From contig JASBUG010000039.1 in assembly GCA_030148025.1 (NCBI GenBank), positions 1-64,000 on the forward strand: DNA of 64,000 bases. The letters run 5' to 3'. Of the stretch, positions 8,746 to 51,380 are shown one piece after another. The translations under genes were made by a program, and so were the position numbers. The notes beneath the pieces were generated by a model, which was not told the origin of the DNA, made no database searches, and saw nothing but the letters and a program-made list of their open reading frames with translations. Each line of letters opens with the position of its first letter. Position 1 is the stretch's first letter. Source of the DNA: Flavobacteriaceae bacterium (lineage in GTDB: Bacteria; Bacteroidota; Bacteroidia; Flavobacteriales; Flavobacteriaceae).

Positions 8746-8794
8746 TCTCGTGAAAACGAGATTTTTTGATGCTGAACTCGTTTCAGCATCTTTT
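8746..8794 (+). promoter_or_regulatory. greA leader with two tandem terminator-like hairpins
   Basis: Hairpin 1 is TCTCGT (8746-8751) with ACGAGA (8756-8761) around a GAAA tetraloop, followed by six Ts. Hairpin 2 is GATGCTGA (8768-8775) with TCAGCATC (8783-8790), followed by TTTT. The right side of hairpin 1 (AAACGAG, 8754-8760) is perfectly complementary to CTCGTTT (8777-8783) in hairpin 2, so the two could exclude each other or form a pseudoknot. This looks like an attenuator or the source of short leader RNAs controlling greA-HIT expression. Structure is read by eye; regulation is inference. Confidence 0.55.
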
Positions 8795-23368: not shown

Positions 23369-26323
23369 ATGAAGTACAATTTCAACGAAATTGAAGCCAA
23401 GTGGCAAAAGTATTGGGCAGAGAACCAAACCTTTAAAGCGGAGAACAATTCCGATAAGCCAAAATATTATGTGTTAGATATGTTCCCTTATCCAAGTGGA
23501 GCTGGCTTACACGTTGGGCATCCACTGGGTTATATTGCTTCAGATATCTATGCACGTTACAAGCGTCATAAAGGATTTAATGTATTACACCCACAAGGGT
23601 ATGATAGCTTTGGTTTGCCTGCTGAACAGTATGCGATTCAAACAGGTCAACATCCAGCAATTACTACAGAAGATAATATTAAAACCTATCGTCGTCAGTT
23701 AGATCAAATCGGATTTTCATTCGATTGGTCACGTGAAGTACGTACTAGTGACCCTAAATATTACAAATGGACACAGTGGGTATTCATTCAATTATTCAAT
23801 TCTTGGTATAATAATGATTCTGACAAAGCTGAGGCAATTTCAGAATTGATTTCAATTTTTGAAAAAGAAGGGAATGTAACTGTAGACGCTGCTTGTGATG
23901 ATACTGTTGAAGCATTTACTGCTGAAAACTGGAACGGATTCACTCCTGAAGAACAACAAGAAATTCTTTTAAAATATAGACTAACATATTTAGCTGAAAC
24001 CGAAGTAAACTGGTGTCCAGCTTTAGGAACAGTATTGGCTAATGATGAAATTGTAAATGGCGTTTCTGAGCGTGGTGGTCATCCTGTTGTTAGAAAGAAA
24101 ATGACGCAGTGGAGCATGCGTATTTCTGCTTATGCTGAGCGTTTACTCCAAGGTTTAGAGACTATTGATTGGACAGATTCACTTAAAGAAAGCCAACGTA
24201 ACTGGATTGGTAAATCGGTTGGTGCCTCTGTTACATTTAATGTCATTCCGACAGAGCGTCACACTGAGCGCAGTCGAAGTGCAAGCGATGAGGAATCTAA
24301 TGATGAGATGCTGAATCAAGTTCAGCATGACAAAGAAAACTGTCATTCCGCACTTGATGCGGAATCTACTTGTCATAAAATAGAAGTATTCACCACACGT
24401 CCTGATACTATTTTTGGCGCAAGCTTTATGACTTTAGCACCAGAGCATGAATTGGTATCTCAAATCACAACACCTGAACAAAAAGCTGAGGTAGATGCTT
24501 ATGTTGAAGCTACTGCAAAACGTAGTGAGCGTGATAGAATGGCAGATGTAAAAACTATTTCAGGTGTGTTTACAGGTGCTTATGCAGAGCATCCATTTAC
24601 TAAAGAGCCTATTCAGATCTGGATTGGAGATTATGTATTAGCAAGCTATGGTACAGGAGCAGTTATGGCAGTGCCTTGTGGTGATCAACGTGATTATGAT
24701 TTTGCAAAACACTTTGGCATTGATATTCCAAACATTTTTGAAGGAGTTGATATTAGTGAAGAAGCTTTTGCCGATAAAGACAATACCATTATTGCAAATA
24801 GTGATTTCATTAACGGAATGAACTATAAAAAAGCGACCAAACGTGTTATTTATGAATTGGAGCAATTAGGTCAAGGAGAAGGAAAGACCAATTACCGATT
24901 ACGTGATGCAGTATTTAGTCGTCAGCGTTATTGGGGAGAACCATTCCCAGTATATTATAAAAATGGAATGCCGCAAATGATTGATGTGGAGCATTTACCA
25001 TTGGAGTTACCTGAAGTTGAAAAATATTTACCAACCGAAACTGGTGAGCCACCATTAGGAAATGCAACTAAATGGGCTTGGTGTACTAAAACAAATACAG
25101 TTGTTTCTAACGACCTTGTCACCCTGAGCGCAGTCGAAGGGTCTCAAGACAATGGTGTATACCCACTAGAATTAAATACAATGCCTGGGTGGGCAGGAAG
25201 TTCGCAGTACTTTAACCGTTATATGGATCCTCAAAATGATGAGGCAATTTTTTCTCAGGAAGCGATTAACTACTGGCAACAAGTAGATCTATATATTGGT
25301 GGAAGTGAGCATGCCACAGGACACTTATTATATTCTCGTTTTTGGCAAAAGTTTATGTTCGATCTTGGATTGGTAGGACATGATGAGTTTGCTAAAAAAC
25401 TGATCAACCAAGGGATGATCTTGGGGACGAGTGCTTTTGTTTATAGAGTAGAAGGAGAGAATAAGTTTTTATCTAAAGGTTTGATTGATGGTCAAAATGT
25501 GCAGCCAATTCATGCTGATGTATCATTTGTTAATTCATCTGATGAGTTAGATATTGAAGCATTTAAGAATTGGCGTCCGGAATTTAAGGATGCTGAGTTT
25601 GTACTTGAAGATGGTGTTTATAAAGTTGGTCGAGACGTTGAAAAAATGTCTAAGTCTAAATACAATGTCGTTAATCCAGATAATATTTGTGCGCAATATG
25701 GAGCAGATAGTTTAAGGCTTTATGAAATGTTCTTAGGGCCATTAGAGCAATACAAACCTTGGAATACTGCAGGTATTACAGGAGTTCATAGTTTCTTAAA
25801 GAAATTATGGAAACTATATTTTGATGACAATGGTTTAAAAGTGACAGATGTTGCACCAACAAAAGACAACTTAAAGACCTTACATAAAACTATTAAAAAG
25901 GTAGAGGAAGATATCGAGAACTTCTCATTCAATACATCTGTATCTACTTTTATGATCGCTACTAACGAGTTAACTGCTCAAAAATGTACAAGTAAAGAGA
26001 TACTAGAACCTTTATTAGTGTTAGTGTCACCTTATGCGCCGCATATTGCAGAAGAATTATGGAGTGCTTTAGGACATACTGAATCTATTTCTACAGCAGA
26101 CTTCCCAATATTTGAGGCGAGTCATTTAGTAGAAAGCAGTAAAGAATATCCAATTTCATTTAATGGTAAAATGCGTTTTAAGTTAGAACTGCCATTAGAT
26201 ATGAGTAAAGAGGAGATAGAAAAAACGGTTATGGCACACGAGCGTACACAAGCACAATTACAAGGGCGTGAACCTAAAAAGGTGATTGTAGTTCCTGGTA
26301 AGATTGTGAATATTGTAGGTTAG
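23369..26323 (+). CDS. leuS: Leucyl-tRNA synthetase with two repeat-derived in-frame insertions
   Basis: Class Ia synthetase that charges tRNA-Leu and edits mischarged products. The signature HIGH site is [12 protein letters not shown] near residue 46 and the KMSKS loop is [13 protein letters not shown] near residue 760; the CP1 editing domain has [13 protein letters not shown]. At 984 residues it is longer than usual. Two segments look foreign: about residues 291-336, between TFNV and the EVFTTRPDT strand, and about residues 582-594 ([10 protein letters not shown]). Both are translated intergenic palindromic repeats and keep the frame open. Catalytic motifs are intact, so the enzyme is probably functional; this is the only obvious leuS here. 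Confidence 0.96.
24241..24376. repeat. Composite palindromic repeat inside leuS (copy 1)
   Basis: About 135 bp built of three pieces: a unit beginning GTCATTCCGACAGAGCGTC and containing GAGCGCAGTCGAAGT; a hairpin ATGCTGAA-TCAAG-TTCAGCAT (24308-24328); and a hairpin ATTCCGCA-CTTGA-TGCGGAAT (24345-24365). The two 5-nt loops are reverse complements of each other. Length is a multiple of three and no stop arises in the leuS frame. Related copies lie at 25115, 26329, 26428 and 51314. Confidence 0.85.
25115..25148. repeat. Palindromic repeat inside leuS (copy 2)
   Basis: Begins CTTG and ends CAAG; the core ACCCTGAGCGCAGTCGAAGGGT has ACCCT/AGGGT arms around the shared GAGCGCAGTCGA sequence. Encodes [11 protein letters not shown] within LeuS, just before the conserved [15 protein letters not shown] segment. 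Confidence 0.8.
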
Positions 26324-26328
26324 TATTT

Positions 26329-26360
26329 GTCATTCTGAGCGAAAGCGTGAGAATCTCATG
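26329..26360. repeat. Palindromic repeat downstream of leuS (copy 3)
   Basis: GTCATTCTGAGCGAAAGCGTGAGAATCTC: the GTCATT-CTGAGCG-GAATCTC layout of the family, directly after the leuS stop. It is diverged in the middle relative to the GAAGTCGAA form. A separate perfect 16-nt palindrome TTCGATAATTATCGAA lies at 26391-26406. The rest of this 253-bp gap up to the next gene holds copy 4 and no recognisable gene. Confidence 0.65.
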
Positions 26361-26390
26361 ATTCAAATATGAGTGAGATTATTACATCGT

Positions 26391-26406
26391 TTCGATAATT
26401 ATCGAA
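26391..26406. repeat. 16-bp perfect palindrome
   Basis: TTCGATAATTATCGAA is perfectly self-complementary, between two repeat copies. Could be part of the repeat debris or a protein-binding site. Confidence 0.4.
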
Positions 26407-26427
26407 CCTTCTCATAATAACATAGAA

Positions 26428-26492
26428 TTGTCATTCCGCACGCTTGCAATGAGCGTAGTCGAAGTGTGATGCGGAATCCACTTGTATGACAA
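26428..26492. repeat. Palindromic repeat downstream of leuS (copy 4)
   Basis: Ends are inverted (TTGTCAT at 26428, ATGACAA at 26486) and an inner pair ATTCCGCA (26433-26440) / TGCGGAAT (26470-26477) matches the hairpin of copy 1. The centre contains GAGCGTAGTCGAAGTG, close to the shared core. Confidence 0.75.
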
Positions 26493-51313: not shown

Positions 51314-51380
51314 AATGTCATTTTGAGCGAAGTCGAAAAATCTAACGATTAAGATTCTTCATTTCATTCAGAATGACATT
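51314..51380. repeat. Palindromic repeat between metallophosphoesterase and gcdH (copy 5)
   Basis: AATGTCATT at one end and AATGACATT at the other are inverted; the interior carries TTTGAGCGAAGTCGAAAAATC, the same core as the leuS copies. On the minus strand it forms a long hairpin followed by TTTTTTATT, so it may end the gcdH transcript. Confidence 0.8.

Follow-up and report, generated by a model that had tools for sequence, protein, structure and literature searches.

Repeats that lie in frame inside essential genes are commonly taken as accidents. The leuS gene described here raises the question of how such repeats came to lie within an open, apparently working synthetase gene, and whether the loop that holds them is an accidental or a recurrent target. 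The gene lies in a stretch of 64,000 nucleotides, hereafter the window, which comprises positions 1–64000 of one contig of a 3.37-Mb draft genome (47 contigs, 88% complete). Its product, leucyl-tRNA synthetase (LeuRS), carries the LeuRS editing domain (PF13603, 178 bits) together with the Pfam domains tRNA-synt_1 and Anticodon_1, and the best named match is a LeuRS of Flavobacteriaceae from an uncultured Lacinutrix MAG (84%). Two in-frame repeat insertions, site 1 and site 2, interrupt it (Table 1). The earlier note on this DNA had described a repeat in the editing-domain boundary that leaves the frame open, and the sequence, frame and coordinates that it gave are correct. The answer that we favour, and hold to be quite probable, is that repetitive extragenic palindromes (REPs) of the CGTC class came into leuS in frame and took the place of a short hairpin loop with which the editing domain begins, that the enzyme carries the translated insert as a floppy loop on its surface, and that insertions have landed in this loop repeatedly.

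Table 1. Coordinates and basis of the leuS features in the window, and of the DUF559 genes discussed in the text.
Feature	Position or locus	Strand	Description and basis
leuS, LeuRS	23369..26323	+	984 codons; open frame, Pfam, PDB LeuRS matches
Site 1	24245..24376	+	44 in-frame codons (I293-H336) replacing a short loop where the editing domain begins
Repeat unit 1, composite	24241..24299	+	Outer repeat TGTCATTCCGACAGAGCG...AGCGATGAGGAATCTA; unsplit in L058 and L060 (by eye)
Type A repeat nested within unit 1	24259..24283	+	Core CACTGAGCGCAGTCGAAGTG at 24262-24281; genome copies of core
Repeat unit 2	24307..24332	-	Minus-strand TGTC head, 8-bp stem, loop TCAAG; inverted-repeat scan, genome copies
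Repeat unit 3	24341..24367	+	TGTC head, 8-bp stem, loop CTTGA; genome copies
Site 2	25117..25143	+	Type A, the second in-frame repeat of the gene; encodes VTLSAVEG, a net gain of 8 residues
Intergenic repeats just downstream of leuS	26328..26490	.	Short palindrome and second nested composite, of unit-3 and type A kinds (by eye)
DUF559 in recG	L288, L290, L331, L421, L422		Pfam confirms L290 host; rest by motifs or likeness
DUF559 in metH	L287, L409, L414		Pfam confirms L287 host; rest by motifs or likeness
DUF559 at front of hemD-like gene	L398, L400, L402, L406, L407, L416		Six genera; Pfam-confirmed in L400 only
DUF559 at end of hisD	L399		Host confirmed by Pfam
DUF559 at front of PLP-dependent enzyme, host genome	L293, G000:C27:27420-27731		Host confirmed by Pfam
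Second DUF559 gene of host genome	L285, G000:C22:35381-35704		

Aligned with solved LeuRS structures, the window protein breaks off at residue 292/293 and resumes at 337/338, and the gap is flanked by residues 236 and 242 in Thermus thermophilus LeuRS (1h3n) and by 257 and 263 in chain 9tjv. About five residues in the solved enzymes stand against 44 codons here, and compared with the usual LeuRS that lacks an insert, the protein is 39 residues longer at this site. A full-length AlphaFold model (27 of the 81 LeuRS rows as input) was too poor to use, with a mean pLDDT of 55.1 and a pTM of 0.32, so the editing domain was modelled alone (58 of the 79 domain rows; mean pLDDT 80.4, pTM 0.77). In this model, the insert occupies residues 15–58 between the strands 2–15 and 59–64, and consists of a helix (17–26) of falling confidence and a stretch, 30–54, below pLDDT 50. 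The predicted position between two editing-domain strands, mostly at low model confidence, is in keeping with the surface loop that had been proposed.

The insert is built of three units. Units 2 and 3 are arranged head-to-head, and their 8-bp stems and mutually reverse-complementary loops are as first described. Unit 1 had been counted as a third palindrome; it is instead a nested composite, in which an outer repeat, found whole at the same leuS site of two relatives, is interrupted by a second one. Comparable nesting can be seen by eye in other LeuRS genes: a CCTGCCGGACAGG-type palindrome splits a repeat at site 1 of L121 that is whole in L080, and a palindrome sits within the loop of a QVQHD-type repeat at site 2 of L073. 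Palindromes like CCTGCCGGACAGG, translated as LPAGQAG or LPAGKAG, occur within these two repeats and also in the isoleucyl-tRNA synthetase (IleRS) of L392. The repeats of the window insert may have arrived in succession, one being split by another, with the head-to-head pair following.

The class of these repeats can be read from their parts. CGTC-class REPs are defined by a CGTC, TGTC or CCTC tag, an 8–9 bp stem starting with AT, a 4–5 nt loop and a CCA tail (PMC3733652). The TGTC heads of units 2 and 3 are one of these tags, their stems, ATGCTGAA and ATTCCGCA, are 8 bp long with AT first, their loops have 5 nt, and both head-to-head dimers and numerous genome copies are present (14 places for unit 2 and 13 for unit 3). 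The tails in the window read CTA in unit 3 and CTC, on its own strand, in unit 2, and the majority of the unit-3 copies in the genome finish with ..ATCC; the nested unit 1 lacks the AT-starting stem of 8–9 bp. As far as sequence features can tell, the published description largely fits, and the window repeats would be a CGTC-class REP cluster whose composite unit and tails are no exact match to the consensus.

Much of this has precedent. The passages of PMC3733652 that bear on such repeats record CGTC families in Bacteroidetes, REPs within tRNA synthetase genes of X. oryzae, E. lithoralis and S. alaskensis, REPs that two Xanthomonas species share at nearly one position of recB and other intragenic copies, and argue for neutral insertion into linkers and loops; the class, its occurrence in Bacteroidetes, its entry into genes including those of tRNA synthetases, and the shared recB site are already known from there. 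Neither LeuRS nor Flavobacteria is named in these passages, and the case described here differs from the REPs that they treat in that one loop has been filled independently in many genera and is shared with a nuclease domain. The likeness to palindromic elements of Rickettsia that had been drawn holds at the level of class only, because the same passages equate RPE-4 and RPE-6 of Rickettsia conorii with CGTC families. RPE-1 and other palindromic elements of Rickettsia likewise insert in frame and leave the host protein open, but RPE-1, by its description there, is set apart by longer palindromic insertions, and the host here is not a Rickettsia, its nearest named LeuRS being one of Flavobacteriaceae.

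RAYT transposases were weighed as a mover of the repeats. Short palindromes of the GTAG kind (REPs or REPINs) are thought to be moved in trans by a small gene product, RAYT. The tag here is TGTC, not GTAG, and the host genome has a single Y1_Tnp gene, whose surrounding 3.3 kb hold no match to GTCATTCC or to type A, so that RAYT as the mover of the window repeats is unsupported in this genome. That gene, which is RAYT-like (G000:C17:16936-17172; L001, L393), adjoins palindromes of another kind, ACTAGTCACAGACTAG.

The earlier note had asked whether the repeat recurs in the genome. With 3 mismatches or fewer allowed, unit 3 is found at 13 places, unit 2 at 14 and the type A core of unit 1 at 26, against none for the reversed patterns. 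Of these 53 matches, 47 lie outside frames of at least 110 codons; four of the six inside are leuS itself, one is in RNase R, and one is in a membrane protein with sub-threshold Pfam matches to glycosyltransferases (one match, L038, which falls right where a 167-codon frame begins, was not counted as intragenic). Within the window, the statement that the same units occur between genes is right for the unit-1 core, which recurs with 1 mismatch at 26450-26464 in the intergenic block behind leuS; looser copies lie at 51324-51338 (the same core, with 2 of 15 bases mismatched) and at 8765-8789 (unit 2, 4 mismatches), and no further copy of unit 3 exists in the window at up to 5 mismatches.

Type A was also counted in 12 hand-picked genomes, where the reversed control gave a single match overall. 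It occupies 19–50 places in each of the nine genomes with type A in leuS and 0, 2 and 7 in the three with an empty leuS. Of 30 type A copies whose surroundings were read in other genomes, 26 lie outside genes, while the four inside comprise two in leuS, one in what we take, by its sequence, to be an efflux-pump-like protein and one in an acyltransferase linker before the E3-binding domain; such shares lean towards leuS, because nine of the 12 genomes were picked for carrying type A there. Type B has at least one place in eight of 12 genomes searched for it. The sole type B place within 3 mismatches in one genome, of a Cellulophaga, is the copy in leuS; a live repeat family is therefore not always present.

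How often the LeuRS loops have been filled was judged from one genome per genus. LeuRS matches were found in 146 genera, one being the window's own; 136 others were taken (nine matching genera are outside the sample), and exclusion of L242, whose leuS frame is broken, from the alignment left 135. Site 1 is enlarged by at least 3 residues in 45 of them, through recognised repeats in 13, in-frame DUF559 domains in 10 and unrecognised sequence in 22, so that among the 136 genera including the window's own, the site is empty in 90, holds a repeat in 14 and a nuclease in 10, and is enlarged by sequence of no recognised repeat type in 22. Site 2 is enlarged in 10 of 128 genera, nine times with a recognised repeat. 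In the window and its relatives, site-1 repeats replace the native loop instead of merely adding to it. A second set, the window and 80 named relatives that are its best matches and not a random draw, has site 1 enlarged in 31 rows and site 2 in 16, with recognised repeat types in 24 and 13 of the 81; a tree of 910 other columns requires at least 20 and at least 12 changes, respectively. Counts of recognised repeats in leuS are inflated, because the repeat patterns came partly from leuS inserts, and lone short matches can be chance, because 12-base matches occur in conserved leuS stretches. A few relatives carry repeats in two further leuS loops, one around window residues 820-836 and one that follows IPNIF.

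A scan of 216 leuS genes for perfect hairpins, which is blind to types A and C, found 16 in 11 genomes at site 1, 7 in 6 at site 2 and 6 in 6 at a third peak (window residues 802-814); the total of 58 is no evidence, because the mirror-repeat control found 97, and the clustering alone is useful. Judged by these sequence comparisons, insertions have landed repeatedly in the site-1 loop of LeuRS among Flavobacteriaceae, and this forms part of the explanation that we favour.

Why this loop? The most likely course is that single repeats land mostly between genes and are kept within genes only where a loop takes the in-frame peptide. Insertions that disrupted the reading frame or the protein fold would have been lost, and the surviving insert would be translated as a floppy surface loop of a working enzyme. 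Around intergenic repeats, 17 of 282 frames of 135-base segments are open (3.9% in shuffles), which makes an open frame uncommon but not extraordinary and a weak sign of selection. Tolerance might even be the whole story: with random insertion everywhere, the leuS loops would simply be among the few coding places that accept in-frame repeats. This account, to which we give serious weight while leaning somewhat against it, is in keeping with the intergenic majority of copies in the host genome and elsewhere, with the further intragenic copies in RNase R, the glycosyltransferase-like membrane protein and the acyltransferase linker, and with the neutral insertion argued for in the passages of PMC3733652. 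It is harder to reconcile with the sister synthetase IleRS, which is of similar size: across 616 IleRS residues, at least 4 extra residues occur in three of 60 genera (5, 8 and 23 residues, one of the three extras being a palindrome-like NLPAGKAG peptide), as against 19 at LeuRS site 1 among the 55 such genera for which a sequence is available, window included. That count is free of repeat patterns and so is fairer than a comparison across 80 loci, in which 48 repeat places in leuS (231 kb) stand against 21 in flanks twice as long (467 kb), with patterns that favour leuS; three flank matches in long frames resemble chance 12-mers, and none lies convincingly within another gene.

Loop tolerance is necessary, but by itself leaves the excess of LeuRS over IleRS unexplained. 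The excess suggests, as a hypothesis, an added cause, such as a site preference of mobile DNA or the capture of repeats at breaks; the candidates are loops that are more tolerant, a mobile-DNA preference, and nuclease cutting combined with repeat capture.

The last of these candidates is raised by the nuclease domains at site 1. In ten of the 135 genera, the site holds about 130 residues or more. The four of these inserts that were scanned with Pfam match DUF559 (PF04480) at 60–133 bits, against a cut-off of 20.6, and a DUF559 search of the genomes finds all ten inside leuS; ten is a low count, because DUF559 matches also occur in L420 and L423, which are outside the sample and leuS by motif, and within the broken leuS frame of L242/L425. 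The only Pfam domains in the four scanned inserts are DUF559 and the related MTES_1575, with no splicing domain, and the DUF559 domain appears, on this evidence, to stay in the LeuRS protein. The arrangement resembles inteins with homing endonucleases in that a nuclease domain lies in frame in conserved genes with a patchy distribution, but differs from them in this absence of a splicing domain. In a side case, L424 (G136:C1:234500-238000), a DUF559/Vsr-like nuclease lies in a protein that matches intein-splicing and Hint domains weakly, below the Pfam cut-offs, which suggests that the nuclease fold may also ride in an intein.

DUF559 is found in 71 of 149 genera overall and is embedded in several other genes (Table 1); the start of hemD looks like another recurrent landing place. 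Embedded copies start near CCCCATCCTATCCTTCCCCAAAGGGGAA and finish close to TTCCCCCTTCGGGGGCTAGGGGGAT, or to variants, as inverted hairpins that are clear by eye in nine of the ten leuS copies and unclear in the decayed L264; eight DUF559 genes outside leuS, recG and metH have comparable hairpin pairs of varying clarity, and hairpin repeats adjoin both DUF559 genes of the host genome. The motif E-x-D-G is retained in nine of the ten leuS copies. L078 has both element ends with no frame between them, and L092 retains an apparent tail of such an element. In a tree of 23 DUF559 domains, the embedded copies fall on one side of a branch from the free ones (92/92), and eight of the ten leuS copies group together (93/92), although their LeuRS hosts are scattered; L264, L289 and L296 sit on long branches. 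In the genus tree, the ten carriers require at least nine changes. Both spread between lineages and an old presence followed by many losses would fit this distribution equally well.

DUF559 with inverted hairpin ends might be an unrecognised mobile element that enters leuS, recG, metH and the ends of hemD and hisD in frame and unspliced, its cutting turning the leuS loop into a trap that captures palindromic repeats during repair; we regard this as possible but doubtful. Slightly less likely, in our judgement, is a hot spot driven by the nuclease, whereby DUF559 elements would cut or target the empty leuS loop and repeats would be captured in break repair or kept because they destroy the cutting site. 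The sharing of one loop by nucleases and repeats (10 and 13 of 135 genera), the grouping of the embedded domains in scattered hosts, the retained motif, the replacement of the native loop by repeats, the frameless ends in L078 and the possible intein host in L424 all speak for it, but old presence with many losses suits the trees as well, and neither of the two DUF559 copies of the host genome is in leuS. RecG also weighs against it: at the nuclease site, 30 of the 58 genera with a match comprise one with the nuclease, four with enlarged loops, none a clear REP, and 25 of the common length. The four enlarged RecG loops (L333, L343, L349, L353) may be scars of lost inserts, and those of L333 and L349 start with KGP, as in the nuclease-bearing copies.

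The insert could also have been selected, its peptide or mRNA hairpins altering the editing, folding or expression of LeuRS. The RNA of 24238-24379 has a strong predicted structure (-42.9 kcal/mol, z = -2.92, with 0 of 200 shuffles as low), and inserts recur in this one gene, both of which speak for such a role. The peptides, however, vary between genera and reading frames, 90 of the 136 genera have none, and the TTRPDT motif directly after the insert, invariant in a 27-row LeuRS alignment, is unaltered, as are the other invariant residues; an adaptive role is improbable.

A single ancestral insertion, decayed or replaced in place, is similarly improbable. The boundaries FNV...IEV and the start V-[IL]-P-N, common to several distant genera, speak for it, but the nearest LeuRS in the sample, L142 by identity (91% over 882 columns) and L145 by path, are empty at both sites; close relatives thus do not all carry the segment. 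Site 1 requires at least 37 changes over four states, 30 for enlarged or not, and 13 for repeat against empty with other states set aside (14 carriers), on a quick genus tree with 46 of 133 inner branches open and many weak forks, whose counts cannot separate gain from loss. With its nearest relatives empty and so many changes, single insertion is unsupported. An assembly artefact or dead gene, which a draft genome of 47 contigs and 88% completeness might invite, is scarcely credible against a single 984-codon frame open across the insert, no second full LeuRS in the genome, and comparable inserts at the same leuS site in the cultured Olleya namhaensis DSM 28881 and Psychroserpens damuponensis JCM 17632.

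The favoured reading, of REPs that repeatedly entered one editing-domain loop, makes the gain, decay and loss of repeats countable, as many genera have the loop filled anew next to sister lineages in which it is empty. The DUF559 inserts are a candidate mobile nuclease within working enzymes without splicing, and would offer a testable reason for repeated hits at one site. In the openly licensed literature searched, outside which most subscription papers lie, no report appeared of DUF559 inside LeuRS, of a landing site shared by REPs and a nuclease, or of the LeuRS loop as a landing site; among openly licensed papers naming DUF559, no title or abstract start concerns LeuRS or insertion. The insertion at site 2, the nested structure, the independent filling in many genera and the nuclease domain in some go beyond what had been noticed at first. 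For annotation, this means that a conserved protein may owe peptides such as SAVEG, ERSRS and HSELDSES to the translation of repeats. Near window residues 698-714, 22 of the 81 LeuRS have a separate insert of varying length, at most about 40 residues, with no repeat features.
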